Source: Bordetella parapertussis (lineage in GTDB: Bacteria > Pseudomonadota > Gammaproteobacteria > Burkholderiales > SG8-41). Taken from it: a DNA stretch of 34,503 nucleotides. The notes beneath the pieces were generated by a model. That model had not been told where the DNA came from and made no database searches. It saw only the letters and a program-made list of their open reading frames with translations. The stretch spans positions 1 to 34,503 of the forward strand of contig CAMBGJ010000008.1 of assembly GCA_945865805.1 (NCBI GenBank), given 5' to 3'. Of this stretch, positions 3,568 to 33,055 are shown in pieces (within the stretch, counting starts at the first letter, position 1; the number at the start of each line of letters is the position of its first letter). Position numbers and translations under genes: made by a program.

Positions 3568-3609
3568 ACAAATTCCTCAATAAAATCAAATAGTTACGAT
3601 ATTTCCGCG

Positions 3610-4599
3610 TTATCCTGCCTTGATTCCTGCCGCCTTGATAATGGGCAGCCAGCGCTGCAGTTCCCGTTTCACGAAATCGCCGAGTTCTTCGGGCGTTGAC
3701 GGTGCAGCTTCCGCGCCCTGGGTGAGCAGGTGTTGCTTCACGTCGGGTTTATTCAACACCTCGGTGATTTCCTGATTCAGTTTCATCACCACCGCACGCG
3801 GCGTTTTCGCCGTGGTAAACAAGCCAAACCACAGTTGCGCATCCATACCGGGTATGCCGGCTTCGGTTGCGCTGGGGATATCGGGCGTGCCGGGAAACCG
3901 CGTTTTGCTCGACACCGCCAGCGCTTTCACCCGGCCCGCCTTAAGTTGGGTGTGCGCGGTCACCGGCGACAAAAATGAAATTTGTGTTTCCGAAGACAGC
4001 AGCGCGGTCAGCGCCAGGCCCGCGCTCTTGTAGGGAATGTGCAGCACCTTCACGCCTGCAATGCCATTAAACAACTCGCCCGCCAGATGGCTCATCGAAC
4101 CATTGCCCGCCGAGGCGTAACTGAGGCCGCCTTTCACATTGCTGTTCTGTTTGATATACGCGATCAATTCCTTGGCGCTACTGACCGGTATCGTCGGATG
4201 CGTCACCAGCACCACCACGCCTGTGGTCATGCGCGATACCGGCGCAAAGTCGCGCACCGGGTCATACGGAATATCCTTGTAGAGCGCCACCGCGCTCACC
4301 ATCGGCCCGGCGTGGCCCATCACCAAGTTGTAGCCGTCGGGCGCAGCCTTGGCTACCACGTCAGCGGCCAGCGTGCCACCCGCGCCCGCGCGGCTATCGA
4401 CCACCACTGGCTGGTTCCATTTTTCGTTGAGCTTTTGTCCGATGAAGCGCGACAGATAATCCGCCGTGCTGCCAACACCGCCGCCCATGATGCGTATCGG
4501 GCGGTTGGGAAAGTCTTTCGCATCCTGAGCGCAGGCGGCACCCGCGCACAACAACACGCACCCGCCAGCAGCGGCCTTCACGACATTTTTAAGCTTCAC
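3610..4599 (-). CDS. Bug-family tripartite tricarboxylate transporter substrate-binding protein (TctC-like)
   Basis: Signal peptide, then FPNRPIRIMGGGVGSTADYLSR, VVVDSRAGAGGTLAADVVAKAAPDGY, VLHIPYKSAG. Confidence 0.93.
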   Translation of the reverse strand: MKLKNVVKAAAGGCVLLCAGAACAQDAKDFPNRPIRIMGGGVGSTADYLSRFIGQKLNEKWNQPVVVDSRAGAGGTLAADVVAKAAPDGYNLVMGHAGPMVSAVALYKDIPYDPVRDFAPVSRMTTGVVVLVTHPTIPVSSAKELIAYIKQNSNVKGGLSYASAGNGSMSHLAGELFNGIAGVKVLHIPYKSAGLALTALLSSETQISFLSPVTAHTQLKAGRVKALAVSSKTRFPGTPDIPSATEAGIPGMDAQLWFGLFTTAKTPRAVVMKLNQEITEVLNKPDVKQHLLTQGAEAAPSTPEELGDFVKRELQRWLPIIKAAGIKAG

Positions 4600-4625
4600 G
4601 TTTCACCCCTCATGTTTCACGCACA

Positions 4626-5648
4626 TCAATTGACCTTTGCACCCGAAGCAATAATCACCGGTGCGAATTTTTTGACTTCCGCGCGGATGAATGCATCGAA
4701 CGCTTCCGGTGTCGTCGGCTTGGGCGTCGCACCCTGAGTCATCATGCGATCTTTCATTTCTGGCGCGCTCAAAATTCGCACCACTTCTTTGTTCACCGTA
4801 TTCACCACGGTGCGCGGCGTTTTCGCCGCCACCAGCAGGCCGTACCATTGATCGTATTCAAAGCCCGGCAGTCCGGCCTCGGCGATGGTCGGCACGTTCG
4901 GAAACAGCGGCGAACGCATCGCGGTACTCACGCCCAGCGCCAGCACGCGCCCGGCCTTGACCTGCCCTGCCGCCACCAGTATCGGCGCAAAGTTATATTG
5001 CACATTGCCGCCGATCACATTGTTCAGCGCGTCGGGCGCGCCCTTGTACGGCACGTGCGCCACCTTGACGCCTGCAGCGAGATTGAACATCTCACCGTTG
5101 ATCTGCGTGCCGCTACCGATGCCCGCCGAACTGAAATTCATCGTGCCCGGCTTGGCCTTCATGTAGACAATCAGCTCCTTCACCGTCTTCGGCCCCAGGG
5201 TTGGTGCCACCACCAGCAGGTTAGGCACGCTTGCCACCTGCGATACGCCGGCGAAATCCTTGATGGTGTCGTAGGGCAGCTTCGAATACAGCGTGGCGTT
5301 GCCCGCGTGGCCGGTGGACACCATCATCATGGTGTGCCCATCGTAATTGGCATCGAGCACGTATTGCGAGGCGATGGTGCCGCCGGCGCTCGGGCGGTTG
5401 TCGACCACCATTTGCTGGCCCCAGCTTTCGAGAAATTTCTCGCCGATCCAGCGCGCGAGGATGTCGGTCTGGCTGCCCGCCGCGAACGGCACCAGCATGC
5501 GAATGTTTTTGCTGGGGAATTTTTCTTGTGCCAGCGCAATGCCATTGGCCGTCAGCAGGCACAGAGCCACGGCAATTTTCAACGAGTTCGTCGCATTCAT
5601 CGCGTTCATCAAATATTCTCCCTCAGAAGCGCACGGCGAAAAAATCAT
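4626..5648 (-). CDS. Bug-family tripartite tricarboxylate transporter substrate-binding protein (TctC-like), second tandem copy
   Basis: FPSKNIRMLVPFAAGSQTDILARWIGEK, MVVDNRPSAGGTIASQYV, VAHVPYKGAPDALNNVIGG. Start could be the downstream MNAMNATNSLKIAVAL methionine. Confidence 0.92.
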   Translation of the reverse strand: MIFSPCASEGEYLMNAMNATNSLKIAVALCLLTANGIALAQEKFPSKNIRMLVPFAAGSQTDILARWIGEKFLESWGQQMVVDNRPSAGGTIASQYVLDANYDGHTMMMVSTGHAGNATLYSKLPYDTIKDFAGVSQVASVPNLLVVAPTLGPKTVKELIVYMKAKPGTMNFSSAGIGSGTQINGEMFNLAAGVKVAHVPYKGAPDALNNVIGGNVQYNFAPILVAAGQVKAGRVLALGVSTAMRSPLFPNVPTIAEAGLPGFEYDQWYGLLVAAKTPRTVVNTVNKEVVRILSAPEMKDRMMTQGATPKPTTPEAFDAFIRAEVKKFAPVIIASGAKVN

Positions 5649-5676
5649 AAGTATTTGTTTTTAAAAACTATTTTTG

Positions 5677-6744
5677 TTACCGTAATTGCTGTGCCATCCA
5701 GTCTGCCGACTGCGTGCGCCAGCGGTAGCCGCGATTATTCGCTACATGGTTGCCGTCGTCGAGCAGCAAAAATTCCACTGCCCCCTTGGCTGGTTTGGCC
5801 GCTTTGGCCAACCGTTCGCCATCCTGCCACGGCACAATACGGTCGAGTTTACCCGCGACAATAAACAGCGGGCAGGTGATGCGGTGCGCACAGTCTTTCA
5901 GCGTCAGCGTCTCGGCAAAGTGGCGCGCGTCGTCTTGCGTTTTTTGCCGTGCGCGCACGCGAAAGGTTTCGCGCGTAAGCTCGTTCAGCATGCCCCAGTT
6001 CGTCGCCCAATCGAATGGGCCGGATAACGAAATACATGCCGCGATGCGCTTTTCAAACGCCGCTGCGCGCGGCGCGTAGTAGCCACCCATCGACACGCCC
6101 CACAGGCCGATACGCCGGTGATCCACGTCGTCGCGCGTTTCGACAAAATCCACCACGGCACGTACCGCCACTTCGTAGTCGCCGCGGATGCCGAGCTCGT
6201 ATTCCGCCTCGCCCTGCCCCGGCCCGTCGAACGCGAGTACCGCCATGCCACGCGCGAGAAACGGTTGTTCGTAGGCTTCGGTTTCTTCCTTCGCTGAATC
6301 GAGCCCCATGCACATGATGACGATCGGCGGATTCTGTACGCCTACCGGTTTGCGCAAAATGCCGCGAAAGTGCGTGCCTTCAAACGGAATGTCCACGCGC
6401 TCGCCGACGGGCTGCAAATAAGGCAAGGCTTTTGTGCGGCAGGCCACCGCTTGCCGGTGCGCCGCGCGCATCTGCGCCAGGTCTTCAACAAAGACGAATT
6501 TGGCAAAGTGATAACACACCGCCGCGCGACTCCAGTGCTCGCCCGCCGACAGGTTGTGCCCTTGCGTGAACACGGCATCGCCCATCGCCTCGTGCACAGC
6601 GGCGCGCCGACTCCACGCCGCGCACCAATCGGGCCAATGTTCGATGCTTGCGGTGACTTCCTGGAAATCCGCCAATGGCACGCCGTTCGCCACGAAACGG
6701 GCGGCCCAGTGGTGTATGGCGGCCTCTACCCGCGCGTCGGGCAT
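5677..6744 (-). CDS. Alpha/beta hydrolase of the FrsA / 2,6-dihydropseudooxynicotine hydrolase-like type
   Basis: Nucleophile elbow GVSMGG, acid loop VAGKLDRIVP, His in LLDDGNHVANN; N-terminal helical cap region. Confidence 0.83.
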   Translation of the reverse strand: MPDARVEAAIHHWAARFVANGVPLADFQEVTASIEHWPDWCAAWSRRAAVHEAMGDAVFTQGHNLSAGEHWSRAAVCYHFAKFVFVEDLAQMRAAHRQAVACRTKALPYLQPVGERVDIPFEGTHFRGILRKPVGVQNPPIVIMCMGLDSAKEETEAYEQPFLARGMAVLAFDGPGQGEAEYELGIRGDYEVAVRAVVDFVETRDDVDHRRIGLWGVSMGGYYAPRAAAFEKRIAACISLSGPFDWATNWGMLNELTRETFRVRARQKTQDDARHFAETLTLKDCAHRITCPLFIVAGKLDRIVPWQDGERLAKAAKPAKGAVEFLLLDDGNHVANNRGYRWRTQSADWMAQQLR

Positions 6745-6781
6745 GGCTTTCTCCTTGATTGGCGAATCGTTGGCGGATCGA

Positions 6782-7660
6782 TCAGCCTTCCGCAGCTTGC
6801 AGATAGCTCAGATCCATATACTTGGCCGGCTCGCCCTTGGCCTGGCTGAACTGCTCGGCCATCCACACCAGTTCGGCGGCCTGACGCACGCCGTCCTCGG
6901 TAATGCGTGGGCGCGGGCGGCTGAAGATGCGTTGCAAGGCCTGGGCGGCGGCATCTGCCGGTGTATCCAGTCGTGCCGGCAACATCGCAATGGCCGCAGC
7001 CTGGTTGGCGCCATCCTGCAACCAGGCGTACGCCTGGTTGTAGCCGCGGATGAAGGCGATCAGTTCGGCCTTGTGCTCGCGTGCCCAGGCACGTCGCGTC
7101 GCGGCGATCGGCCCCGGATAGGCGGGAAAATAATCGCTCAGGGTCGCCAGGCGCTTCAAGCGCGCGGTAATCAGGTTGCAGTCGAATGGTGCGTTGATAA
7201 AACACGCGGAGCCCTCGCCGTTTTTCATGGCGTCGAAGCGCTCCTGCGAGCCGCCGAAATTCTTGAAGAGCGTGTCGCTTTCTTTCAGGCCATGCTGCGC
7301 GAAGAGCTTTTTCAGCAGCAGCGAATAACCGGTGCGCGCGTCGTCTACAACGATGTTCTTGCCCTTGAGATCCGCGATGGTATCGATGTCCCGCGACACC
7401 ATCAGGGACAGTTCTGGTGCCTGCGATTGGCCCATGAAGATGAACAGATCGGCACCAAGCTCAACGCCCCGTACGATGTGATCGACTTGCTGGAAGCCGA
7501 TGTCGAAGCCGCCGCTTTTGAGCTGCTCAATCTGGAGTATCGACGAGCCGGTGACGGTGAGATTCACTTCCACGCCGGCGTCCCGCCAAAAACCCAGTGA
7601 CTGAGCCACGTACACGGGCCAAGTGTTCACACCTTCAGAAATCAAAGCTAACTTAATCAT
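6782..7660 (-). CDS. ABC transporter substrate-binding protein, NMT1/THI5/SsuA-like
   Basis: KLALISEGVNTWPVYVAQSLGFWRDAGVEVNLTVTGSS...ADLKGKNIVVDDARTGYSLLLKKL, the pattern of NMT1-like periplasmic binding proteins. No permease or ATPase gene adjacent. Confidence 0.8.
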   Translation of the reverse strand: MIKLALISEGVNTWPVYVAQSLGFWRDAGVEVNLTVTGSSILQIEQLKSGGFDIGFQQVDHIVRGVELGADLFIFMGQSQAPELSLMVSRDIDTIADLKGKNIVVDDARTGYSLLLKKLFAQHGLKESDTLFKNFGGSQERFDAMKNGEGSACFINAPFDCNLITARLKRLATLSDYFPAYPGPIAATRRAWAREHKAELIAFIRGYNQAYAWLQDGANQAAAIAMLPARLDTPADAAAQALQRIFSRPRPRITEDGVRQAAELVWMAEQFSQAKGEPAKYMDLSYLQAAEG

Positions 7661-7817
7661 ACAATTCCGGCAAAATTTCAGGGATTCCCAGCCGCTGAAA
7701 TCAGGGCAGCCGAAAGCTCGCCGATGCTAGGTTCAGCACCAACTTTTGTCAATAAAAACCGTCTGTTATCTGTAGTCGCCGTAACGCCATTTCATCGATG
7801 CGTCAACCGCATTGGTA

Positions 7818-7849
7818 CGGATTAACAGGTAATCGAACCTACCAATCCG
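7818..7849. other. Hairpin immediately downstream of the 51-aa ORF stop
   Basis: CGGATT aacAGGTaatcgaACCTacc AATCCG: outer stem CGGATT/AATCCG, inner AGGT/ACCT; no clear T-tract. Confidence 0.45.
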
Positions 7850-8005
7850 TTAACTCGCGCGGCGACCGACACCTTTGCGGCGATCCACCGCACGACGCTC
7901 TGGCCCACTGAACAGCGCGCTACGGCCTTTACGGCGATCATCGTCGTTACGTCGGCCATTGACGTTGGTTCTACGGTTTTCAATCTCGTTGGTCGTATCG
8001 GACAT
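7850..8005 (-). CDS. Small basic protein of unknown function, 51 aa (MSDTTNEIENRRTNVNGRRNDDDRRKGRSALFSGPERRAVDRRKGVGRRAS)
   Basis: Manual minus-strand translation; GGAG Shine-Dalgarno 6 nt before ATG; stop TTA(rc) at 7850. Below the size cutoff of the supplied ORF track. Confidence 0.65.
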   Translation of the reverse strand: MSDTTNEIENRRTNVNGRRNDDDRRKGRSALFSGPERRAVDRRKGVGRRAS

Positions 8006-8038
8006 AAGTTTCTCCATGTACCATTTACCCTATTGCAA

Positions 8039-8066
8039 ATTCTATCATCGACGCCAATAGTCGCAA
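8039..8066 (-). promoter_or_regulatory. Candidate sigma70-like promoter for the 51-aa ORF
   Basis: Minus-strand TTGCGA (8066-8061), 16-bp spacer, TAGAAT (8044-8039), about 34 nt upstream of the ATG. Confidence 0.4.
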
Positions 8067-8201
8067 TTGGGTCTGGGCGGTAACCAAGCTACCGCTACTC
8101 AACGCCGCGTGTTAACGCCGGGTTCTAAACGCGACAAGGTTTTGAACATCACCCAGAGCCAGAAATTACACGCCGCATCAGGCGAAAACCTAACGCCACG
8201 A

Positions 8202-10247
8202 TCAACGTTTCAGCACGCTGAATAAATTGTAAAAATCATCCGTCCACAAACGGAAATTCGGATCGTGCGGCAAAGTCTGCGCCGCGTTGCGCAACGCGGG
8301 CGCGTTAAGAATACTGCGGTTCTGCGTGAGAATAATTTGATCGGTGGACGACAGCCAGTAATCGATGCCAGTGGTGTGCGTGCCCTCGGGTTCATCCGTG
8401 ACCATCACCGCACTCATGCCGAATTCACTGGCCAGCCGCGCCACCACCGGGGCGATATTCACAAAACGGTTGGTGGCCTGAAACACCATCACGCCGCCGG
8501 GTGCGAGATGTTTGATATACGCTTGCATCGCCTCGCGCGTGAGCAGATGCATGGGGATCGAATCACCCGCGAACGCATCGATCGCCAGCAAATCAAAATT
8601 CTGCGGTGCCTCACGCTCCAGGCTCAGGCGACCGTCGCCAAGTACCACGTCGATCTGCGCGGGGCTGTCCTTCAGAAACGAAAACTCCATCATCGCCACC
8701 GCCGCCACCTGCGGATCGATTTCGTAAAAGCGGAACACGTCGCCGCGACGCGCATACGCGGCCAGCGCGCCCGCCCCCAGCCCGATCACGCCGACGCGTC
8801 GCGGCCCGTCATTGTTCAACGCCCGCAGGCTGGCAAAGGTGCGCCCGTAACCGCTGCTCTCGCCAAAGTAAGTCGAAGCCTTGCGGCGCATCGCATCGCC
8901 CAGCAACTGTCCGCCGTGATTGATGTTGCCGTGGTACATCACGCGAAACGGCGCCGGATCGGGAAAATCCTTGGTACGCACCACGCCGTAGAAATTACGC
9001 ACCATGACGCGCACATCACGCGAATACTCGGTGACGTTCATGATCACAAAACCGGTGGTCACACTCGCCACGACAAACGCCAGCGCGGCCACCCAGCGCT
9101 TTTGCTCGAGAGCGCTCCAGAACAGCAGCAGCGCGCACGCCGCCAGCACCATGCCGAGCTCAAAATAACCTTTAAGCAACAGCGGCGCGCCGATGGCGAT
9201 CAGCAACGCGCCCAGCGCCCCGCCGATGGAAATCATCAGGTAAAACGTGGTCAGATAACGCGGCACCGGACGCACGCGATACAACTCGCCGTGGCAGAAC
9301 ATGCAGCAGACAAAAAGACCCACCACATACACTGGCGCTGCGACGTAAAGCTCCAACGACTCGGTAAACCACGCCATCGCGGGCAACGCCGCCGCCATCA
9401 GCCCGACAAACACCGGGCGCACGTACCAGCGCGGATGGTCAAAACACAGAATAAAAGTGATCAGGTACAACGCCAGCGGTGCCAGCCACAAAAAAGGAAT
9501 CGAAGCGATGTTCTGCGTCAGGTGATTGGTCACGCCGAGCAACAGGCACGAGCCCATCGCAGCGTAAATGATCCAACTGATGCGCACGCCCCACGCGGGC
9601 GCGGGGCCGTCGTCGGCTTGATTCGTGGCTACTGTCGCTGTGCCGTTAGCCGTAACAGTCGCCGCACGCGCGCTCACCCAGGCTGTCACCGCGCACAACG
9701 CGGCAAATACCCCATACAACGCCGACCAGCCGTAGGATTGCACAGTGCCGCGCAGCCACGGCTCGATGGCCACCGGATACGACAACAATGCCAGCAGCGA
9801 GGCAAAATTTGATAACGCAAACAGACGATACGGCACGGCGTGTTTGTAATGCCGCCAGTACCAGCTTTGCAGCAACGGGCTGGTCGCTGACAACAAAAAA
9901 TATTGCAAGCCGATGGTCACGCCCAACAAGCCAAGTATCGCCAGCGTGGGCGAGGTGCCCGCTTCGCCGCCGGGTTTCCAACTGACATCGGGCAAAATCG
10001 GCAGCAGCAGCAGACTCACCGCCAGCAGCGCTATATGAATTTTGGCCTGTGTGCGGGGCGCGACGCGGCGGGATGTCCAGTCAGCATACGCATAACCGGC
10101 GAGCAGCACGCTCTGAAAAAACACCAGGCACACCGCCCACACTGAAGCCGCACCACCGAACCACGGCAATATTTGCCGCGCGATCACGGGTTGCACCAGG
10201 AACAACAAAAACGCGCTAAGGAATATCGTCGCTGCGTAAAGCGGCAT
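8202..10247 (-). CDS. Fused membrane (MFS-like) / spermidine synthase-like methyltransferase-fold protein
   Basis: N-terminal multi-TM region; C-terminal IGLGAGALAAYARRGDVFRFYEIDPQVAAVA and VVLGDGRLSLEREAPQNFDLLAIDAFAGDSIPMHLLTREA. Confidence 0.88.
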   Translation of the reverse strand: MPLYAATIFLSAFLLFLVQPVIARQILPWFGGAASVWAVCLVFFQSVLLAGYAYADWTSRRVAPRTQAKIHIALLAVSLLLLPILPDVSWKPGGEAGTSPTLAILGLLGVTIGLQYFLLSATSPLLQSWYWRHYKHAVPYRLFALSNFASLLALLSYPVAIEPWLRGTVQSYGWSALYGVFAALCAVTAWVSARAATVTANGTATVATNQADDGPAPAWGVRISWIIYAAMGSCLLLGVTNHLTQNIASIPFLWLAPLALYLITFILCFDHPRWYVRPVFVGLMAAALPAMAWFTESLELYVAAPVYVVGLFVCCMFCHGELYRVRPVPRYLTTFYLMISIGGALGALLIAIGAPLLLKGYFELGMVLAACALLLFWSALEQKRWVAALAFVVASVTTGFVIMNVTEYSRDVRVMVRNFYGVVRTKDFPDPAPFRVMYHGNINHGGQLLGDAMRRKASTYFGESSGYGRTFASLRALNNDGPRRVGVIGLGAGALAAYARRGDVFRFYEIDPQVAAVAMMEFSFLKDSPAQIDVVLGDGRLSLEREAPQNFDLLAIDAFAGDSIPMHLLTREAMQAYIKHLAPGGVMVFQATNRFVNIAPVVARLASEFGMSAVMVTDEPEGTHTTGIDYWLSSTDQIILTQNRSILNAPALRNAAQTLPHDPNFRLWTDDFYNLFSVLKR

Positions 10248-10250
10248 GCT

Positions 10251-10290
10251 GTTTTACGTAACTATTTGTTTTTATTTATTATTTTTTATA
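10251..10290 (-). repeat. AT-rich dispersed element (AATAAATAAAAACAAATAGTTACGTAAAAC)
   Basis: Matches core AATAAAANCAAATASTTA on the minus strand; intergenic between the spermidine-synthase-like and NUDIX genes. Confidence 0.6.
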
Positions 10291-10322
10291 CCAACGGCCA
10301 AACAGAACTGAGCGCACCAGTA

Positions 10323-10886
10323 CTACCACTCCCCACGCAGCAGTTTTTCCGCCCACAACACGCCCATCACAGCCTTGGCTTCGGTGATGCGCCCATCGCG
10401 TATCCATTGCATCGCCTCGACGATGGGCACGTGTAACATTTCGAGAAATTCGTCGTCGTCGAGGTGCCGCCCCGCTTGCGTGAGGCTGCGTGCGAGATAC
10501 AGCTCGATGCGCTCGTTGGAGTAGCCGATGCCAGGATGCAGCGTGCTCAAGTGCCGCCACTCAGTGGCAACGTAACCGCATTCTTCGCGCAGTTCGCGTT
10601 TGGCGGTATCCAGCGGATCCTCGCCCGGATCGATCTTGCCGGCAGGCAGTTCGATGAAATGACGGTTCAGCGGATAACGGTACTGGCGCACCAGGGTGAT
10701 CGTTTTGTCATCCGGCATGGCGATGATCATCGATGCGCCCGGATGCAGGATGTACTCGCGCACGGATTCATGGCCGTTCATCAAGCGCACGCGGTCTGAT
10801 TTCACGTGCAACAGCTTGCCCTGAAAAACGGTTTGTGATGCGAGCGTAGTCTCGCTCATGTCTTGCCCGGCTTTATCGTCGGCCAC
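10323..10886 (-). CDS. NUDIX hydrolase, ADP-ribose pyrophosphatase-like
   Basis: NUDIX box GKIDPGEDPLDTAKRELREECGY. Confidence 0.92.
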   Translation of the reverse strand: MADDKAGQDMSETTLASQTVFQGKLLHVKSDRVRLMNGHESVREYILHPGASMIIAMPDDKTITLVRQYRYPLNRHFIELPAGKIDPGEDPLDTAKRELREECGYVATEWRHLSTLHPGIGYSNERIELYLARSLTQAGRHLDDDEFLEMLHVPIVEAMQWIRDGRITEAKAVMGVLWAEKLLRGEW

Positions 10887-10904
10887 GAGCAGCTCCGGTT
10901 GGGT

Positions 10905-12365
10905 TTATAGCGACGCGAGTATCGCGCTTGCACACAGCGCCATCAGCGGCTGCGGGAATATGCCGAACGCCAGCACAGCGAGGCCGTTCACCGACAGCAG
11001 CATCTGCACATCGGCACGCGGGGTAATTGCCGTGGTATCCGTGGCGTCATCAAAGTACATGAGCTTGACGATGCGTAGATAGTAGTAGGCACCGATCAGC
11101 GAGAAAATCACCGCGATCACCGCCAGCCACACATGGCCCGCTTCAACAATGGCCTGCAGCACCGCGAACTTGGCATAGAAGCCGACGGTTGGCGGCACAC
11201 CCGCCATCGAGAACATCAACAGCAACATCAAAAATGCGTACCACGGGCTGCGCTGATTGAGACCCTTGAAGTCTTCGAGATTTTCCGCCTCGAAGCCATC
11301 ACGCGACAACAGCAGAATCATGCCGAAGGCGCCCAGGCTCATCAGCACGTAAACCACCACGTAGAACATGCCCGAGGCGTAACCATTCAGGCCGCCGGCC
11401 GCGATGCCGATTAACAAAAAGCCCATGTGCGAAATCGTCGAATAGGCCAGCATGCGCTTGATGTTCGTCTGCGCAATCGCGGTGATATTGCCGATGATCA
11501 AACTGAGCACCGCCATCACCGCCAGCATCTGCTGCCAGTGCGCCTGAATTTGCTCAACACCCAACGCCTGCACCAGCAGCCGGATCACAAAAGCGAACGC
11601 GGCAAGCTTGGGCACCGAGCCGATGAACAGCGTTACCGCCGTCGGCGCGCCGTGGTACACATCGGGCAGCCACATGTGAAACGGTGCTGCGCCGAGCTTA
11701 AAGCCGATACCTGCCGCCAGGAACACCAGACCGAACACCAGCACCACGTTCTTGGCGCTGTCATCCGCGATCACGGCGGCGATGCGTGTGACTTCCAGCG
11801 AACCCGCCGCGCCATAAATCATCGACATGCCGTAGAGCAACATGCCGGAAGCCAGCGCGCCCAGCACAAAGTATTTCATCGCCGCTTCGGTGGCTTTGGC
11901 GGAATCGCGCTGCAGCGCGACCATCGCGTAGAGCGACAGGCTCAGCAGTTCCAGTCCCAGATACAGCGTCAGCAGATGGTTGGCCGAGATCATCACCATC
12001 AGGCCCAGCGTGGCAAACAGGGTCAACGCGAAAAACTCGCCGCGGAACATGCCGCGCAGCGCCAGATAATCGCGCGAGTAAACCAGGATCGAGATCACAC
12101 CAAAGTAGGTCACGAGCTTCAGCACGTCGGCCATGAGATCGCCGACGAACATACCGCTGAAGGTATGTACCGGCTCGCCGGGGTTCAGTTGCGTTGCGGT
12201 AGCCCAGGTCAGCAGCGCGCAACCGGCCAGCGTAGCCTGTGTCAGAAAATAGGTGATGCCACGGTTTTCATCGCGGATGAACAAATCGGCGATCAGGATC
12301 ACGCACGCCATGGTGAGCAGGAATATCTCGGGATAGGCGGGCCACAGGGGTTGTATGTATTGCAT
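10905..12365 (-). CDS. nuoN: NADH-quinone oxidoreductase subunit N
   Basis: Antiporter-like multi-TM protein; [35 protein letters not shown]; last gene of the nuo order. Confidence 0.97.
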
Positions 12366-13873: not shown

Positions 13874-13912
13874 TATTTAAGTATTTGTTTTATTTGATAA
13901 TTTTTGTTAATC
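13872..13912 (-). repeat. AT-rich dispersed element (ATTATCAAATAAAACAAATACTTAAATAAT)
   Basis: nuoL/nuoM intergenic gap; matches family core on minus strand. Confidence 0.6.
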
Positions 13913-17063: not shown

Positions 17064-17074
17064 TTTTGACAGCG

Positions 17075-17190
17075 GTGAACGAGTGAACGGGTGAACGGGT
17101 CAAGGGAACAGTTGCAGCGAAGCAGAACGGGTGCCCCTCCGCAACACTTAGCACTTACTCGTTCACTCGTTAACTCGTTCACTTGTTCAC
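17075..17190. repeat. Dispersed inverted-repeat element, copy B, inside the nuo operon
   Basis: gtgaacgagtgaacgggtgaacgggtcaagggaacagttgcagcgaagcag ... ttactcgttcactcgttaactcgttcacttgttcac; 8-bp units (tgaacgag/tgaacggg) inverted at the other end. Confidence 0.75.
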
Positions 17191-17204
17191 GCCTTTGCAT
17201 TGCA

Positions 17205-18815: not shown

Positions 18816-21178
18816 ACGGCCACCTTTTGTTGCCCTGCCACGCGCGTCGCCGTCAACTCAGCGCTGCTTGCACCCAACGCGGACGTTTCCACGCACGCCG
18901 CCGCCAGACGAATGCAATCCGCAGGCAACTTGTCATCCATTAGGTAACCCACCACCGCGTCACCGCCGCCCTGACTCACACGCACGCTGTCGCCATCGCG
19001 CAAGCCGAGCTTGTCCGCCAGCGCGCGATTCAAGCTCGCCAGCGGCAACTGGCCGTCACATGTTTTTTGCAGCGACGGCGCGCGACGTGCAATCGCATCT
19101 GCCGCGTAAATGGGCGTTTCCGCGATGCGTTGCAGGCCCGAAGCCGCTGGCAATGCATTGGCAAGCGTTACAGATAAGTTATTGTTTTTATTGATATTTT
19201 TATTATCCGATCCCAGTGCCTCAAGGCGCACATCGTCCGCGCTTTGGTGGTCAAAACCAGTCAGTCCGAGCAGATTGCCCAACACCCGCAGCACCTTCCA
19301 CGCCGGACGCGTTTCGCCTAGCGGCTGCACTACACCCTGAAAACTTTGCGCGCGACCTTCGGTATTGATGAAGGTGCCAGCGGTTTCGGTAAACGGCGCT
19401 ATCGGCAGCAGCACCTGCGCATACGCCGTGGCTGTGTGCTGATACGCGCTTAACGCGACAACGAACTCAGCCTGCTTCATGGCATCAATGGCCTGCCGCG
19501 GGTTGTGCATATCGAGTTCGGGCTCGACGCCGAGCAACACATACGCTTTCAACGGCTGCGCGGTCATCTGTTGTGCATTCGCGCCCTTGTTACCCGGCAC
19601 AGCATTCGCCACATAACCGCCGACGCTGTTCGCGGCCTCGCCCAGAAAGCCACAGCGCGCGCCAGTGATTTCGGCCAGCGCTTGCGCCAGTGCATGTAAC
19701 CGGGCGGCTTGTGGATGATGCTGCGCAAAGTTGCCCAGCAACACGGCCACATTTTTGCCATCGGACAAGCTGGCAGCGATGCGTTGCGCGGCATCGCCAA
19801 CCGTAACTGCTGCCACCAGTGCACTGACGCTCGTCGGCACAGCCACATCTTTTACCGCTGCCGCTGCTTTAACCACTTGCGCCAATGTATCCACCAAAGC
19901 GCCGGGTGCAACGATGGCCTTGTTCGCCACACGCATCAGCAGATCATCGTCTACCGAATGTAAGATATTGATTTTTAAGGATTTTTTAGAAGACTGCCGC
20001 AAGCGATGCGTGATCAGCGGTTGATCCTTGCGCAAGGTCGCGCCCACCACCAGCACGCGATCCAGTGCGCTCACATCGGCGATGCTCATGCCCAGCCACG
20101 GCGCACCGGCCAATTTGCCGTCGGCGCTAAAGTCGCTTTGGCGCAAGCGGAAATCAACGTTGTTTGAGCCCAGCCCGCGCACTATTTTTTGCAGCAGGTG
20201 CAATTCCTCAACCGTTTGATGCGGCGTCGCCAACGCACCGATAGCCTGTGGCCCATGTGCAGCGGAGATACGTTTCAATTCCGTAGCGACAAAATCCAGC
20301 GCCGTCTGCCAATCGGTTTCTTTCCATGTGCCGTTCTGCTTCAGCATGGGCCGTGCGAGACGTTGCGCGGAATTCAGCGCTTCGTACGAGAAGCGATCCT
20401 TGTCCGAAATCCAGCATTCGTTGATGGCTTCGTTTTCACGCGGCAAGGCGCGCATCACACGATTTTGTTTCACCTGCAACGTAAGATTCGATCCCAAGCC
20501 GCAGTGCGGGCTGATCGAGGACTTGCGCGTGAGTTCCCACGTGCGCGCGCTGTAACGGAACGGCTTGGAAGTCAGCGCACCCACCGGGCACAGATCAATC
20601 ACGTTGCCCGACAATTCCGAATCCACGGTTTTGCCGACAAACGTGATGATCTCGGCATGCTCGCCGCGACCGATCATGCCGAGCTCCATCACCCCGGCGA
20701 TCTCCTGCCCGAAACGCACGCAGCGTGTGCAATGGATGCAGCGTGTCATGTCCGTCGAAATCAGCGGACCGAGATTCTTGTTGGCGACGACGCGTTTATC
20801 TTCTTCGTATTTGGATTCACTGCCACCATAGCCGACCGCCAAATCCTGCAACTGGCACTCGCCGCCCTGATCGCAGATCGGGCAATCCAACGGGTGGTTG
20901 ATCAGCAGAAACTCCATCACACCCTTTTGTGCGGTGACGGCCTGATCAGAATGCGTTTGCACCTTCATGCCGTTGGTCACCGGTGTGGCGCATGCGGGCA
21001 TGGGTTTGGGCGCTTTTTCGATTTGCACCAGACACATGCGGCAGTTCGCGGCAATCGACAGCTTGCGGTGATAACAGAAATGCGGCACGTAAATGTTCGC
21101 CAGCCGCGCGGCATCCATCACCGTGCTGCCGTCGGGCACTTCCAGCTTGTTACCGTCGATTTCGATTTCTAGTGGCAT
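18812..21178 (-). CDS. nuoG: NADH-quinone oxidoreductase subunit G
   Basis: N-terminal 2Fe-2S ferredoxin domain (CRMCLVQIE), [16 protein letters not shown], molybdopterin oxidoreductase fold. Start placed at MPLEIEIDG; the ORF extends to 21199. Confidence 0.96.
19170..19208 (-). repeat. AT-rich dispersed element inside nuoG, encoding [12 protein letters not shown]
   Basis: Minus strand GGATAATAAAAATATCAATAAAAACAATAACTTATCTG; shares an exact 21-mer aaaaatatcaataaaaacaat with the copy at about 27.69 kb. Confidence 0.65.
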
Positions 21179-21193: not shown

Positions 21194-21275
21194 AACCACA
21201 GATGAACACAGATGAACACAGATAACCCCGGAACGATCTGGCTTTATCTGTGTTCATCTGTATTTATCTGTGGTT
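21194..21275. repeat. ACAGAT-type inverted repeat between nuoF and nuoG
   Basis: Left arm aaccacagatgaacacagatgaacacagataa and right arm ttatctgtgttcatctgtatttatctgtggtt are complementary at 30 of 32 positions. Confidence 0.85.
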
Positions 21276-21286
21276 AAAAATGCTTT

Positions 21287-25491: not shown

Positions 25492-25494
25492 GTG

Positions 25495-25869
25495 TTACTC
25501 CCAGTCCAAAGCGCCCTTCATCCACTCGTAGACAAAACCCACGACGAGGATGCCGAGAAACACCACCATGGCAAAGTAGCGGAACGTGCTGGCATCCTGC
25601 TCGCCAAGCACGATTGCCCACGGAAACAGAAACGCAATTTCCAGATCGAACAGAATAAACAGGATCGCCACCAGATAGTAGCGCACGTCGAATTTCATAC
25701 GCGCGTCTTCAAAGGCCTCGAAGCCGCACTCGTAGGGCGAGAGTTTTTCGTCGGTGGGCTTATACGTGCCCAGCAGCCGTGACAGCCCGCCGCCCAACAG
25801 CATGGGTGCCGCGCCCACCAGCAGGCCTACGCCGATGAACATCAATATGGGAAAGTAGTTTTCAAGCAT
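25495..25869 (-). CDS. nuoA: NADH-quinone oxidoreductase subunit A
   Basis: [40 protein letters not shown]. Confidence 0.97.
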
Positions 25870-25968
25870 CCGTTTGCTAACCGGCCTCAGATCGAGGACT
25901 GTTTATATAACTTGTTGTTTTAAATTACTTTTTTATTCCCTGTTAACCTGCTACTGCCCCTGTACTAC

Positions 25969-26053
25969 TGGTGCCGACGGAGAGACTCGAACTCTCACGG
26001 CTTTCGCCACCGCCCCCTCAAGACGGCGTGTCTACCAATTCCACCACGACGGC
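25969..26053 (-). tRNA. tRNA-Leu (anticodon GAG), CCA encoded
   Basis: GCCGTCGTGGTGGAATTGGTAGACACGCCGTCTTGAGGGGGCGG...GAGAGTTCGAGTCTCTCCGTCGGCACCA; anticodon stem CCGTC/GGCGG with loop TTGAGGG; long variable arm. Confidence 0.94.
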
Positions 26054-26099
26054 ATAACTACTTGGCACCTGTGCTTTAACAGACGCTCATTTTTATGAA

Positions 26100-26561
26100 C
26101 TACTTGGGTGTGTCTCCCGCTTTGGGCGGTACGGCTGGCACGTCTGCCGGTGCGGCTGCGCCGGATTTCTCGCCCTTATTACCCTTTTCACCCTTATCCG
26201 ATTTTGCCGCTGGCACTGCTGGCACATCCGACGCCCCCGGAACGCCCGGAACCCCTGACGCCCCCGGCGCCTTATCCGGCGCGCTTTGCGTGGCACCCGG
26301 CTGATTGGCCATCACGCCTTTGCCGCTACTGCCTTTAGTGTTCAGGTACGACAGCCCGATACTGGTGAGAAAAAACACCAGCGCCAGCCCGGCCGTCATG
26401 CGACTCAAAAAATTGGCTGAACCCGCCGAGCCGAACACGCTACCGGCCGAGCCGGTACCAAAAGCCGCGCCCACGTCAGCACCCTTACCATGTTGCACCA
26501 GCACCAGGCCGATAATCCCGGCAGCGGCGACTACGTGCAAAATCAAAACCACGAGATCCAT
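26100..26561 (-). CDS. secG: Preprotein translocase subunit SecG, with long Ala/Pro/Gly/Lys-rich tail
   Basis: VLILHVVAAAGIIGLVLVQHGKGADVGAAFGTGSAGSVFGSAGSANFLSRMTAGLA. Confidence 0.94.
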   Translation of the reverse strand: MDLVVLILHVVAAAGIIGLVLVQHGKGADVGAAFGTGSAGSVFGSAGSANFLSRMTAGLALVFFLTSIGLSYLNTKGSSGKGVMANQPGATQSAPDKAPGASGVPGVPGASDVPAVPAAKSDKGEKGNKGEKSGAAAPADVPAVPPKAGDTPK

Positions 26562-26568
26562 AATTAAT

Positions 26569-26594
26569 CCAATAAAATCAAATACTTAAATTAC
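26569..26594 (+). repeat. AT-rich dispersed element (CCAATAAAATCAAATACTTAAATTAC)
   Basis: secG/tpiA intergenic gap; near identical to TCAATAAAATCAAATAGTTACGATA at 3577. Confidence 0.6.
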
Positions 26595-26613
26595 TTCAGT
26601 CACATCACCCGCG

Positions 26614-27363
26614 CTAAGCGGCTTTGCAGATGGCAGCGAATTCATCCGCCACCAGCGCTGCGCCGCCGATCAAGCCGCCATCGATATCCGCCATCGCAAA
26701 AAGCTGCGCGGCGTTCGCACCCTTGACACTGCCACCATAAAGAATCGGCAACCCATCTGCCACGCGCATATCCTGATCCGCAATACGCCCGCGGATCAAA
26801 GCATGCACTGCCTGCGCCTGCTCCGGCGTGGCCGTCTTGCCAGTGCCGATAGCCCACACCGGCTCATACGCCATCACGGCTTGTCCCAGCGCAGCCACGC
26901 CTGACTGCGCGATCACCGCATCCATTTGCCGCGCAATCACCTGCTCCATCACGCCGGACTCGCGCTCCGCCAGCGTTTCGCCCACGCACAAAATCGGCGT
27001 CAGGCCCGCCTTCAACACAGCAGCGAATTTTTTCGCCACCACCCCATCTGTATCGCCAAACAGCGCGCGCCGCTCGGAATGCCCAACAATCACAAAACGG
27101 CAACCAAAATCCGCCACCATGCCCGCCGAAACCCCGCCGGTGTAGGCGCCGTGTTCGTACTCGCACACATCCTGCGCGCCCCACGATATGCCCTGCCCGC
27201 GCAAAATCTGCTCGGTTTGCGCCAGATAGGGATACGGCACACACACCGCGCAACGCGCGCTCGTGACCGAAGCCAGCAAAGGAATCAAAGACTTAAGCAA
27301 TGCCTGATTCGAAGCCAGGTTGCCATTCATCTTCCAGTTACCCGCGACCAACTTGCTACGCAT
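26614..27363 (-). CDS. tpiA: Triosephosphate isomerase
   Basis: MRSKLVAGNWKMNGN, FVIVGHSERR, AYEPVWAIGTGKTATPEQAQ, LPILYGGSVKGANA. Start set to the internal ATG. Confidence 0.97.
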   Translation of the reverse strand: MRSKLVAGNWKMNGNLASNQALLKSLIPLLASVTSARCAVCVPYPYLAQTEQILRGQGISWGAQDVCEYEHGAYTGGVSAGMVADFGCRFVIVGHSERRALFGDTDGVVAKKFAAVLKAGLTPILCVGETLAERESGVMEQVIARQMDAVIAQSGVAALGQAVMAYEPVWAIGTGKTATPEQAQAVHALIRGRIADQDMRVADGLPILYGGSVKGANAAQLFAMADIDGGLIGGAALVADEFAAICKAA

Positions 27364-27686
27364 TTCGCACCCGGCTGACATTAACCGTCGGATTTTACCG
27401 GGACAGCGACTAACGGTCAACGCAAGCACATGGGAATGCGTGAGAGAAAGCCATGGATTTGACGGGCTTTTTCAGGTGACGCACGCTATCAACGCAGGAA
27501 TTATTTGTGCACGATAGCGATACGGCGAAACCAGCGCTGCTAAACCCTGCTCGTCCGCGCATAAAGTCTACCGCTACCTCGCTTCGACTCTGCAAACGGC
27601 AACGGCGCGCGCAACACCTGAGGCACAGGCTCACCGGGCGACGTCGAAGAAGTCGCATTTTCACCTTCCAGGAACGCACTCAAGGT

Positions 27687-27725
27687 GATAAAAAATATCA
27701 ATAAAAACAATTTGTTACGTATAAT
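27687..27725 (+). repeat. AT-rich dispersed element upstream of the ChaN-like gene, carrying a TATAAT
   Basis: gataaaaaatatcaataaaaacaatttgttacgtataat; exact 21-mer shared with the nuoG copy. Confidence 0.6.
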
Positions 27726-27760
27726 AGTCGCAACTTTCCTCGACCTGCCGGAGCGATCTT

Positions 27761-28624
27761 TTGCGGCTCAATACCTTGCTACCCGCCTTGTGCCTGATCA
27801 GCTGGCTCCACGGTTGCGCGACTACACCGTCGCGTCATGCGTGGGAAAACCGTCTTTCCGGCGACAACATCGTGCTGCTGGGCGAGGTGCACGACAATGC
27901 CGAGCATCATCGCTTGCGGCTGGACGTGTTGCGGCGTGCGTTCGACGCGGGCTGGCGTCCATCCATAGCGATGGAGCAATTCGACCGCGAACGGCAGCCA
28001 GACATCGAGCGCGCACGCCGGGAACGCCCGCGCGACGCGCAGCATGTGATCGACCTCGCAGGTCTTAATCGCAGCGGCACGCGCAGCAACTGGGCGTGGG
28101 ATTTTTACCGGCCCTTTGTCGAGCTGGCGCTGGCGTACGACTTACCGCTAATCGCCGCCAACCTGTCGCGCGCGGATATCGGCCAGATCATGAAAGGTGG
28201 CTACGCCGCACTATTCGATGCGCAAACCATCAATACGCTCGGTCTGAAAAGCGTGCCCGCCGATCTGCAAGCCGTCCAGGAACAAGTCATTGAACAAGGC
28301 CATTGCAACGCGCTGCCGCCGCATGTGGTGCCCGCAATGACTCGAGGACAACTGGCGCGCGATGCGGTAATGGCATCCATCGTGAGTCATCATTCGGTGC
28401 AGGGCATCGTGCTGTTGGCCGGCAATAGCCACGTCAGACGCGACAGGGGCGCGCCGCGCTGGCTCAATCGCGCGCATCTGGCGCGAACTTACGCCGTTGG
28501 CTATCTGGAAAATCCGCCGTCTGGCGCCGGGGCAAACGCATTCGATGCGGTAGTGCCTACCAAGGCGGCAGAACGCCCCGATCCCTGCCTCGCCTTCAAG
28601 AAACGCATCGAGCAAATACGTTAG
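27761..28624 (+). CDS. ChaN-like lipoprotein (DUF399 / heme-binding uptake, EreA/ChaN-like fold)
   Basis: TTG start with GGAG upstream; lipobox LHGC; LSGDNIVLLGEVHDNAEHHRLRLDVLRR, SIAMEQFDRERQ, VLLAGNSHVRRDRGAPRWL. Confidence 0.85.
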   Translation: MRLNTLLPALCLISWLHGCATTPSRHAWENRLSGDNIVLLGEVHDNAEHHRLRLDVLRRAFDAGWRPSIAMEQFDRERQPDIERARRERPRDAQHVIDLAGLNRSGTRSNWAWDFYRPFVELALAYDLPLIAANLSRADIGQIMKGGYAALFDAQTINTLGLKSVPADLQAVQEQVIEQGHCNALPPHVVPAMTRGQLARDAVMASIVSHHSVQGIVLLAGNSHVRRDRGAPRWLNRAHLARTYAVGYLENPPSGAGANAFDAVVPTKAAERPDPCLAFKKRIEQIR

Positions 28625-28627
28625 ACG

Positions 28628-29683
28628 TTAAAGCGCTTGCACCACCGCGTCGCCCATCTGTGACGTGGAGGCTTTGCCACCCAGGTCGCCGGTCAGATGT
28701 TGGGCATCCGTGATCACTTTTTCCATCGCGTTGTCGATCAACGTGGCAGCTGCAACCGCTGATGCCTGCTGGTGTTTACGCCCCAGCCACTCCAGCAACA
28801 TCTTGCCGGACATGATCATCGCGTACGGATTGGCGATAGCCTTGCCGGCAATATCAGGCGCGGAGCCGTGCGTGGCCTGCGCCATCGCCTGATGCTGGCC
28901 CACGCACAGGCCCGGCGCCAGACCCAGCCCGCCCACCACCGCCGCGCCCAGATCGGTGAGGATGTCACCGAAAAGATTGGTCGTTACCACCACGTCGAAC
29001 TGCTGCGGCTGCATGGCGAGCTTGGCAGCCATGCCGTCGATCAGCACATGCTCGAGCTTCACATCCGGATATTCGGTGGCGCCCTTGCGGCACTCGTCGG
29101 CGAACATGCCGCAGCACAGCTTGTAGGTGGATTCCTTGTGCACCGAGGTGACTTTTTTCATCGTACGCGTGCGAGCGATCTCGAACGCCTCGCGCGCCAC
29201 GCGATTCGCCCCCGTGCGTGTCACCACGCGCGTGCCGATGGAGATTTCGTCGTTGGGCCGAAATTCGCCGTTGCCCGCAATCACCACACCGCCCGATTGC
29301 AGGCCCTCGGTGACTTCGCGAATGATCACCACGTCCACGCCCTTGTGCAGCGACTGAATATTGGCGTAGCTACGCACCGGCTTTACGCTGGCGTAGAGCT
29401 CGAATTTTTTGCGCAACCCGGCGTTCACCCACGTCGGGTCGTTGCGTGGATAGGCGTTATGCCCCATCGGCCCGAGGATGAATCCATCCATGCCACGCAG
29501 CGCGTCAACCGTGATTTTTGGGATGGTGTGGCCATGAGATTCGTGCGCCTTGCGTCCCACCGGCAACGGATGCCACTCCACCGCGCAGCCGGTTTTCGCC
29601 ACAGCGGCTTTCATCACCTGGACGGCTTCGGGCACCACTTCCAAGCCGATGTCGTCGCCCAGCAATATCGCAATCTTCAACAA
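28628..29683 (-). CDS. Isocitrate/isopropylmalate/tartrate dehydrogenase family protein
   Basis: LLGDDIGLEVVPEAV, VDVVIIREVTEGLQSG, FDVVVTTNLFGDILTDLGAAVVGGLGLAPG, ATHGSAPDIAGK. Confidence 0.9.
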   Translation of the reverse strand: MLKIAILLGDDIGLEVVPEAVQVMKAAVAKTGCAVEWHPLPVGRKAHESHGHTIPKITVDALRGMDGFILGPMGHNAYPRNDPTWVNAGLRKKFELYASVKPVRSYANIQSLHKGVDVVIIREVTEGLQSGGVVIAGNGEFRPNDEISIGTRVVTRTGANRVAREAFEIARTRTMKKVTSVHKESTYKLCCGMFADECRKGATEYPDVKLEHVLIDGMAAKLAMQPQQFDVVVTTNLFGDILTDLGAAVVGGLGLAPGLCVGQHQAMAQATHGSAPDIAGKAIANPYAMIMSGKMLLEWLGRKHQQASAVAAATLIDNAMEKVITDAQHLTGDLGGKASTSQMGDAVVQAL

Positions 29684-29701
29684 GATAATTCCTCAATCCG
29701 T

Positions 29702-30897
29702 TCAGTGGATGTAATGCCGTATAGCCTTCATGCGCGTCACCGAATCACCGGCCAGATGCGTCCAGATGTGTGCGTCGCGCACCAGTTTTTCAGTGAGGGC
29801 ATCGATTTCCAGGCCGTTGGAACCGTGCAGATCCATATTGAGCGCAGTGACGCGCTGAATCGCCATTTTGGAAAAATTGGTCACCAACAACGCCGGGCCG
29901 AAATCCTTGGCGGCGGGGTCGCGCGCCAACGCGCGATCACGCTCCCAAGCGGTGCGCAGCACGAACGAGCGCAACGCTTCGGTGAGCATGCGCATTTCCG
30001 ACAACTGCAGTTGCGCCAGTTGCTGGTCGGCCAGCGGTTTACCGCCTTCGCGATGCGTGGTGGCGTGATGCATGCCATGCTCCACTGCGGCGTCGCACAC
30101 GCCCAGCGCATTAGCCGCCAATTCCAGATCACCGAACTCCGACGGATCGCCGCCGCGCACGCGTGCGCCACCATGCGCCTCGCCCACCACATTGGCGTGC
30201 GGCACGCGCGCGTTGTCGAAAATCAGCTCCGCATTTTGGTAAAAGCGCCAGCCACGTTTATTGAACACCTTGCCGTGGCGAAAACCCGGCGTAACGGCGG
30301 GCACCAGAAACAACGTGGTGCCGTTGCGCGCATCGACTTTGGAATCCGAGCGCGTACGCACGAAAACAGCTTGGCGATATTGCCGTTGGCGATGAACACT
30401 TTTTCGCCGTTGAGTATCCATTCATCACCCTGGCGCTCGGCGCGCAACCGCAGACCCGAGGCCACATCGCCCGGCGGCAGGCGGTTATCCGACCCGGAGT
30501 TCGGCTCGGTGCTGCCCGACCCCAGCAGATACGTATCGTCGGCGAGAAACGGCGGCAGAAAGCGCTGCTTCTGATCCTCGGTACACACGGCGGCGATCAA
30601 CTGGCTCCATTTCCAGTTCTGGCTGAACGCCTTGCAAATCGCACTGTCACCCTTGGCGAGTTCGGCGATCACCAGCGTTTGCGTTACCAGATCGATGCCG
30701 TGCCCGCCGTAGGCCTTGGGCGTGGCTGCGGTTCTGAAACCGAGTTTGGACCCTTTGCGAATCAAATCCCAGTCGAAGGTATCTTGCGGCGCTTCCATGG
30801 CGTCGCGGGCGAGCGAGCGTGGGCGTATTTCTTCGAGCGCAAATTTGCGTGCCTTGAGTTGCCACTCGCGCTGTTCGTCGTTAAGGGAAAAATCCAT
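29702..30897 (-). pseudogene. Acyl-CoA dehydrogenase interrupted by a single frameshift
   Basis: Frame 1 (30897 down to about 30363): MDFSLNDEQREW...GDEWILNGEKVFIANGNIAKLF; frame 2 continues VRTRSDSKVDARNGTTLFLVPAVTPGF... to 29702. Adding one A to the AAAA run at 30363-30366 restores KLFFVRTRS. Confidence 0.85.
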
Positions 30898-30907
30898 CGT
30901 CGTTCCT

Positions 30908-32116
30908 TTATGAATGGGCGCGTTGAAAGCCCGCGACGGCTTCGGCGACCAGTAACCTGGCGGCACCCGCGCCAACTTCGCCATGCTTGAACATCAAGGC
31001 ATCGTCCACGTATTTTTGCAGTGGCATGTCGCGCATCACGCCCATCGCGCCAAAACATTCGGCAGCGCGTTCGGTGACGTCCACCATCAGCTCGCTGGTA
31101 TACGCACGCGCCATGTGATGCAGCGGCAGGCCCGAAACGCTGCGATCGGCTACAGCCGCCGGGTGATCGACCACCCACGCCGCTTTCCACGCCATATTGC
31201 GCGCGGCTTCGAGCTTGATCGCCATGTCGGCAAGGAAGGTGCCGATGGCCTGATGTTCGATGGTTTTCTTGCCGCCCTGACGACGCAGCCGGGTGTAATC
31301 AATCGCCGCTTCGAACGCCGCCTGGCCGATATCGATATTGGCGGCAGCGAGCAGCGGCGAGACGCGTTGCGTGTAACGCGTGCCTACGTCGCTCAGCAAC
31401 ACATCGCTGTCAGGTACGATGCAGTCTTTGAGCACTACCGTGCCCGCCGCGCCATGTCCCCAGCGCAGGGTTGCACCGCCGCGCGTACGGCTTGCCTCGC
31501 GCACGGTTAAGCCCGCCGTGCCGCGCGACACGGGCAACGTGATATCGCCGCTTGCGCTGCTGGCGTTGACTGCAAACAAATGCGCGACCGCAGCATTAGC
31601 CACGGCAGCGAACTCGCCGTTAACCACCCACGCACCTGCGCTGTTTTTCACTGCTGTAGCCTGCGGCGCTGGCGTGCCGCTGGCGCTGTGATAGGCGGCT
31701 GCGCGGCCCGCATCCGGGTTACGCCCGGGGTAGGCCAGGTGATAAGCCACATCCGCAGTGAACGTCGGCAGATAACGCTGGCGTTGTTCGTTGGACAAGA
31801 CCTCACCGAACAGCAAGCGCGCCAGCACGGCCGTATGCGCCATCACCACCGCGATATCCGGGTCGCCCTGGGCGAGTTCCTCGATCACGAGACAGGCCGT
31901 ATGGCTGTCCGCGCCCGCGCCGCCGTGGGCTTCCGCCAGCGACAGCGCGCGCAGGCCCATGCTGGAGGCCGCATTAAGCAAATCCGTCAGCAAGGGCTTA
32001 TCAAAAGGCTCCAACCGGCGTGGATGCAAGGTAACCGGCTTCATTTCGTCGCGCGCAAAGCCGCGCACAGTGTCGGGGATTTCGATCTGCTCCGCGCTAA
32101 GATGTAAATTGTAAAT
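30908..32116 (-). CDS. Acyl-CoA dehydrogenase family protein, probable ATT start (annotated-type GTG start would be 32068)
   Basis: ORF 30908..32068 plus in-frame upstream codons giving (I)YNLHLSAEQIEIPDTVRGFARDEMKPV; AGGAGG at 32126-32121; C-terminal FGAMGVMRDMPLQKYVDDALMFKHGEVGAGAARLLVAEAV. Confidence 0.8.
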   Translation of the reverse strand: MYNLHLSAEQIEIPDTVRGFARDEMKPVTLHPRRLEPFDKPLLTDLLNAASSMGLRALSLAEAHGGAGADSHTACLVIEELAQGDPDIAVVMAHTAVLARLLFGEVLSNEQRQRYLPTFTADVAYHLAYPGRNPDAGRAAAYHSASGTPAPQATAVKNSAGAWVVNGEFAAVANAAVAHLFAVNASSASGDITLPVSRGTAGLTVREASRTRGGATLRWGHGAAGTVVLKDCIVPDSDVLLSDVGTRYTQRVSPLLAAANIDIGQAAFEAAIDYTRLRRQGGKKTIEHQAIGTFLADMAIKLEAARNMAWKAAWVVDHPAAVADRSVSGLPLHHMARAYTSELMVDVTERAAECFGAMGVMRDMPLQKYVDDALMFKHGEVGAGAARLLVAEAVAGFQRAHS

Positions 32117-32139
32117 AGCGCCTCCTGGCTGATGGTGTT

Positions 32140-32590
32140 ACCACGATAGAACGGCGGGTGCAGCGCGGGAACAGTTGTTGTTCGCGCAGCGCCCGCGTGA
32201 TCGTCTGCTGCCGCGTATTGATTATAGGCGATGGCATCTTTGCCGACGCAACCATGCTCGTGTACGAAATCGATTCATAGCCCGGCAATCCGGAGGCTGC
32301 CATCGTAGGCAATTCCGGCGCCAACGCCGAAGGCTGGGGACTGGTCATCGTCAGCGCACGTAGCTTGTCCGACAGGATATGCCCCTTAACCGAGCCGATG
32401 CCGGGAAACATCAACTGCACTTCGCCGCTGCTCAGCGCATGGACCGCGGCCCCCGCGCCCCTACAAAAAATGCGCACGATATCGATGCCGACAGCGACTT
32501 GAACCGTTCTCCCGAAAGGTGATTGCCCAATCCCGGCAAGGTGGAAGCGTAAGCAGAATAGTCACGGCGACAAAAAAATTCTCGCGACAT
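32140..32590 (-). pseudogene. Degraded Bug/TctC-type receptor fragment
   Basis: AYASTLPGLGNHLSGERFKSLS in one frame, then GIDIVRI...GAGAAVHALSSGEVQLMFPGIGSVKGHILSDKLRALTMTSPQPSALAPELPTMAASGLPGYESISYTSMVASAKMPSPIIN in another. N- and C-termini not found. Confidence 0.8.
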
Positions 32591-33055
32591 CGCTAGCTGC
32601 AGATGCAACGAACCCGAAAATAGCCATAACATAAGTAATTGATTTAGTTGATTATTTTAGTTACGCTTTTCCTTACCGTGAGGAGTCCACTGAATTGACG
32701 AGGGATGATTGTGCCGCGCGCCACCGCAGCATAATCTCGCCTGGCTACTGTGGTAAATAGGCTAACGTGTGCTGGAACTGGTTCAAATATCATCGAGTTG
32801 CCACTGCGGAAGACACGCCAGCGGCCAGCGATCGATGTTTGCAGCCGGGGGCATTGGGCGCGCAAGCGTCGACACATGAGAAACCGCTGCAAAAATACAG
32901 GCGCACAGTATCCCAGTATTGTTCTGCAATGTGTCTACCAGCAAATAGACAACGGCAAATAGCAACTAATGTCGCTAATTGTTTCGCCGTCCTGGCGGCG
33001 AGCGGTAAAATAGGCCATTTCCCACATCAACGACAAACACGACAATCACGTTTTT

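Follow-up and report, generated by a model that had tools for sequence, protein, structure and literature searches.

Only two families, the Pasteurellaceae and the Neisseriaceae, have been reported since about 1980 to take up DNA in a sequence-specific manner, a statement repeated in 2025 (PMC12616744), so that ideas on why such uptake evolves and on what recognises the motif depend on these two cases. Their genomic signatures, the uptake signal sequences (USS) and DNA uptake sequences (DUS), occur in high copy number with no orientation bias, somewhat regular spacing and a preference for non-coding DNA (Redfield and co-workers, PMC1626085). Their consensus is far stronger than that of regulatory sites, their mutational origin is proven by gap-free protein alignments, and they form subclade dialects and weaken once competence is lost (PMC1626085).

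Here we describe a short AT-rich element found in a 34,503-nt stretch of DNA, the window, which carries the nuoA-N operon and is contig CAMBGJ010000008.1 of assembly GCA_945865805.1, labelled Bordetella parapertussis. We consider it probable, by analogy with the described systems, that the element is the trace left in the genome by sequence-specific DNA uptake, in other words a DNA uptake sequence. Like the Pasteurellaceae USS, which number about 1000–2000 copies of a roughly 30-nt motif made of a core and two AT tracts, it combines a strong consensus with regular spacing, an origin by substitution at the sites compared, dialects and a putative decay with competence loss (PMC1626085, PMC12616744). 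It resembles the Haemophilus USS in layout (a core and two T tracts) but not in sequence: Pasteurellaceae cores (Hin-USS AAGTGCGGT, Apl-USS ACAAGCGGT, each with two AT-rich 3' segments) have a GCGG inner core, whereas the present element lacks a GC-rich inner core and occurs in Burkholderiales. With the Neisseriaceae DUS (GCCGTCTGAA, CTG core, receptor ComP) it shares copy number, occurrence in both orientations, genus dialects and non-coding preference; the DUS, however, is a continuous 10–13-nt motif without the AT tracts seen here. The two USS cores, at 2 and 5 occurrences respectively, are not enriched in the 1.19 of 5.09 Mb analysed in detail (the window plus L034–L093), and the DUS has 2 occurrences there, indicating that the motif is unrelated to either. 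Literature searches returned no report of such an element for this bacterial group. If the reading holds, a third motif, unrelated to the other two, would behave in the same way across genomes, implying that uptake specificity arises repeatedly, and there would be a new lineage, with element-bearing beside element-free competent genera, for identifying the receptor and for setting molecular drive against species recognition.

Copy number, consensus and spacing

A preliminary description of the window, made from the sequence alone, had proposed a family of about ten related words and an approximate core, AATAAAANCAAATASTTA. Eight of its ten listed copies match that core at up to three mismatches, against a mean of 0.02 matches in 100 dinucleotide-preserving shuffles of the window, so that the family is real. 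Across the whole assembly (455 contigs) the core has 1054 matches (518 and 536 on the two strands) compared with 22 (12 and 10) for the same pattern read backwards. De novo counting, which used no prior word, returned CAAATACTTA as the most over-represented 10-mer (83 occurrences, 0.49 expected). An iterated profile of 41 columns and 38 bits, with copies defined as matches scoring above 21 bits, finds 345 copies in the 1.19 Mb (18 with the profile reversed), ten of them inside the window. Lowering the cut-off to 11 bits adds merely about 40 copies, and the element copies therefore form a discrete class.

The consensus of these copies is AAAAWWnTCAWTAAAAACAAATASTTAYR. The complementary strand reads TAASTATTTG as the core, followed by TTTTTATT, GAn and WWWTTT, so that a core is followed by two T tracts separated by about 10 nt. 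Outside an 18-base core, conservation drops to the background level over about 13 bases on each side, giving an element length of about 36 bases; neither a terminal inverted repeat nor a conserved flank was found outside these borders. Locating 345 sites in 1.19 Mb needs about 12.8 bits, whereas the profile holds 38 bits, and the consensus is thus over-specified three-fold.

The copies are spaced evenly, at a mean of 3.2 kb, with a coefficient of variation (CV) of 0.578 compared with 0.768±0.034 when copies are assigned at random to the actual gaps, and counts per 20 kb are under-dispersed (variance/mean 0.32, P about 7e-7). The same holds in genome G001 (CV 0.586 vs 0.767±0.079; 3 of 1000 nulls as even) and in G019, which belongs to another genus (0.505 vs 0.924±0.116; 0 of 1000). 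An artefact of gap position is ruled out as the cause, since the null placements were drawn from the real gaps. The 9.3–20 kb region of L057, the longest to have many gaps but no element, carries TctC, amidohydrolase and luciferase-like genes and no phage, and is uninformative on depletion in mobile DNA.

Placement of the copies and their origin at nuoG

The ten copies in the window are given below as the span of the 41-column match with its score, and, where present, the 18-base match to the first-described core.

3566–3606, plus strand, core 3579–3596 (exact): gap upstream of the 2212–3567 gene; 48.8 bits
5638–5678, minus strand, core 5648–5665: gap between genes 4626–5648 and 5677–6744; 50.3 bits
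10249–10289, minus strand, core 10259–10276: upstream of the major facilitator superfamily (MFS)/spermidine-synthase-like gene 8202–10247; 51.7 bits; a copy also in L095
13868–13908, minus strand, core 13878–13895: fills the 41-base nuoL/nuoM gap within the nuo operon; 47.9 bits
19165–19205, minus strand, core 19175–19192: inside nuoG, encoding part of the NuoG linker; 46.5 bits
19951–19991, minus strand: inside nuoG, missed in the preliminary description; 35.5 bits
25898–25938, minus strand: downstream of tRNA-Leu and upstream of nuoA; 39.0 bits
26558–26598, plus strand, core 26571–26588: gap 26562–26613; 45.5 bits; copies also in L095 and L096
27687–27727, plus strand, core 27700–27717: gap before the plus-strand gene 27761–28624; 48.9 bits
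32622–32662, minus strand, core 32632–32649: gap before the plus-strand gene at 33056/33107 (WcaJ-type sugar transferase); 42.5 bits

The positions first assigned to the copies are correct to within about 10 bases, and the copy placed only approximately near 25903 on the minus strand is a family member at 39 bits, but the weak copy proposed at 7749 on the plus strand reaches only 11 bits and does not belong. The assignment of the family to gene boundaries holds for most copies and fails for 59 of the 345, including the two in nuoG, which lie inside predicted genes.

Gene gaps were taken from a home-made gene caller (88% coding). The remaining copies lie in these gaps, nearly always at most one to a gap, and any two copies are at least 100 bases apart. 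In tandem gaps, 102 copies share the strand of the genes and 94 lie on the opposite one; copies occur in convergent, tandem and within-operon gaps as well as in gene interiors, and occupancy of 60–100-base gaps is 0.34 for tandem and 0.32 for convergent but 0 of 17 for divergent gaps. No association with GC skew was found among the 345 copies. Placement is therefore independent of transcription, avoiding short promoter gaps, and the shared word order, independence from gene direction and fit to neither promoter nor terminator that the preliminary description had noted are borne out.

The origin of the copies was examined at the two nuoG sites and through intergenic intermediates. The 19165–19205 copy lies at the same codons in 7 of 7 same-genus loci, in two further congeners (one of which, L202, has a NuoG identical to that of L094) and in genus g7. 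Element-free relatives have ordinary linker codons at this site and differ by at most 1–2 codons in length, far below the length of the element, the linker changing for example from SRLNNRL to INKNNNL. The 19951–19991 copy is graded across congeners (35, 30, 24, 24, 16, 13, −12 and −22 bits) in an alignment that is gap-free except in its most divergent row. Between nuoL and nuoM, a complete copy is present in the window, L096 and L167; the distant L108 has a word resembling one, and L094 and L095 show partial words. Near gap-free alignment with element-free relatives indicates that the two nuoG copies arose through point substitution and not insertion. Taken to mean an inserted unit, the small dispersed element suggested earlier is thus not supported; the changes at nuoG and in the nuoL/nuoM gap are in-situ ones and not insertions.

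Distribution among relatives and competence genes

Close relatives of the window's NuoG come from freshwater betaproteobacterial metagenome-assembled genomes, some of them mislabelled 'Bordetella parapertussis', and the bacteria concerned are uncultured. Genus g1 carries 283–1308 copies in 13 of 14 genomes, and within the same family, f1, further bearers are g6 (755 copies), g7 (140–374 in every genome listed) and g8 (60–130). The element is thus abundant in four genera of this family, while g2 (except G014, 52 vs 14 in the control), g3, g4, g5 and g9 show background counts. One genome, G018, has its own variant of the motif. An order-wide search of about 400 genomes revealed one further clear bearer, G452 of family f25 (genus g163; 191 vs 3 in the control, 3.3 Mb), which uses the dialect AAATATTsAATATAATCAAnTAnTTA (L216–L225). 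Another genome, G215, gave 25 vs 1 in that search, yet no clear element was found in 192 kb of it.

A looser class-level search returned a weak excess of AATAWAAWCAANNNSTTAYR (13–37 vs 0–5) in several other Gammaproteobacteria, including G555 (37 vs 2), G503, G643 and G636; this could reflect another family whose motif is related, or an unrelated word that recurs.

ComEC and DprA are near-universal in family f1, so that their presence in bearers is informative mainly through G009. Among family genomes at least 95% complete, this genome (97% complete) alone has no ComEC (PF03772) and it alone has no DprA, and it is the sole element-free genome among the 14 in its genus (76 vs 68 in the control). 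In the NuoG tree G009 falls inside the genus, above the element-bearing L099 (support 87/91), and the element-bearing g7 is the sister group of the whole set (100/98). This nested position makes loss of the element in G009 more likely than primitive absence, and the single lineage is suggestive of erosion of the element with loss of competence. A de novo word count over 134 kb of G009, made for a replacement motif, gave AT-rich simple words only. Despite its assignment to the same genus, G009 (L174–L183, L207) is a divergent and apparently non-transformable lineage.

Genome G062 had appeared to be a counter-example, with the element and no ComEC, and was set aside because nuoG is missing as well, indicating an incomplete assembly. 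In genus g1, ComEA (L199, L200, L201) has a variable-length Lys/Asp/Ala repeat tail (KKDDKADAKK...) after its helix-hairpin-helix domain.

Uptake sequence, bound site or repeat

We infer uptake bias, a receptor and spread driven by recombination, by analogy with the described systems. The competence machinery would include a DNA receptor at the cell surface, for which a type IV minor pilin is a possible candidate, with a preference for fragments that bear AAAAAWWnTCnAWTAAAAACAAATASTTAYR, and fragments from relatives with better matches to the motif would enter and recombine more frequently. Such a motif would then build up by point mutation and recombination (molecular drive) at any site where the DNA can accommodate it, for the most part short intergenic gaps and now and then a stretch encoding a protein linker, reaching one copy per about 3 kb with crowding avoided. 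Every trait of uptake sequences that was open to checking appears to be present, erosion after competence loss being no more than suggested, by one lineage. On balance, and with somewhat less assurance than for the uptake reading itself, we lean towards a third, independently evolved uptake system in Burkholderiales outside the Neisseriaceae, with genus and family dialects (f1 g1, g6, g7 and g8; f25 g163), a receptor specific to it, and secondary loss of both the element and competence genes.

The strongest competing explanation is a binding site for a chromosome-organising or nucleoid protein that requires a site at intervals of a few kilobases, whether for compaction, for domain borders or for segregation. 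Even spacing, AT tracts about one helical turn apart, the lack of strand bias and genus-wide conservation would all suit such a site, and Karlin is cited as having read the even spacing of Haemophilus USS likewise (as quoted in PMC1939737). We nevertheless regard it as unlikely: ordinary protein sites do not carry about three times the information needed to locate them, the element is patchy across genera of one family, and its absence coincides with that of ComEC and DprA. What favours a DNA uptake sequence over a bound site is that the consensus is over-specified three-fold, that the copies are evenly spaced, and that one nested species lacks the element, ComEC and DprA together. Several points count against an uptake sequence. 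The joint absence in G009 amounts to one event, in a lineage with a long branch and lowered GC content (47% over the 134 kb sampled), and the density of about one copy per 3 kb is about one third of that in Haemophilus, at about one per kb. Genera g2–g5 and g9 possess ComEC and DprA yet have no element; competence therefore does not depend on the element, and most competent bacteria likewise do without one. ComEA was considered as the determinant and rejected, being above the TIGR00426 cut-off in g1 and g6 only and absent from the element-bearing g7 and g8.

Explanations that dispense with both an uptake sequence and a chromosomal site fare worse. A promoter, terminator or regulator site would account for copies in gene gaps, some of which have −35/−10-like words nearby (the copy at 27697, for example, has TATAAT downstream), but is very unlikely given the equal frequency of both orientations, copies that lie between converging genes, between neighbouring nuo genes or within a gene, depletion in short divergent gaps and a promoter scan at shuffle level. 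A sigma-70 promoter specifically would be oriented upstream of gene starts and enriched in divergent gaps, neither of which is seen. High copy number, a strong consensus and intergenic preference are also expected of a short mobile or copied repeat inserted throughout the genome, of the kind of miniature inverted-repeat transposable elements (MITE) or repetitive extragenic palindromic (REP) sequences, which likewise have hundreds of short intergenic copies; the present element, however, lacks inverted repeats and conserved flanks, is evenly spaced, and changes by in-situ substitution, with graded intermediates and nuoG alignments free of element-length insertions, making such a repeat extremely improbable. 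That the copies are simply AT-rich spacers in a GC-rich genome, as their composition and intergenic position might suggest, is refuted by the excess over shuffled and reversed controls in the window and genome-wide (8 vs 0.02 and 1054 vs 22) and by absence from other genera of the family.

A separate kind of repeat was observed in the same sequences, namely long inverted repeats whose arms are made of short tandem units (GTGAACGAGTGAACG..., CACAGATGAACACAGATG..., CGCAAAGACGCAAAG...), at window positions 17064–17204 and 21200–21286, L034:4305–4398 and L039:1525–1587. The 1.19 Mb contains 81 pairs of 14-mer inverted repeats, at least some of which are of this kind, and most relatives carry a tandem-unit hairpin of this sort between nuoI and nuoJ, though built from a different unit.

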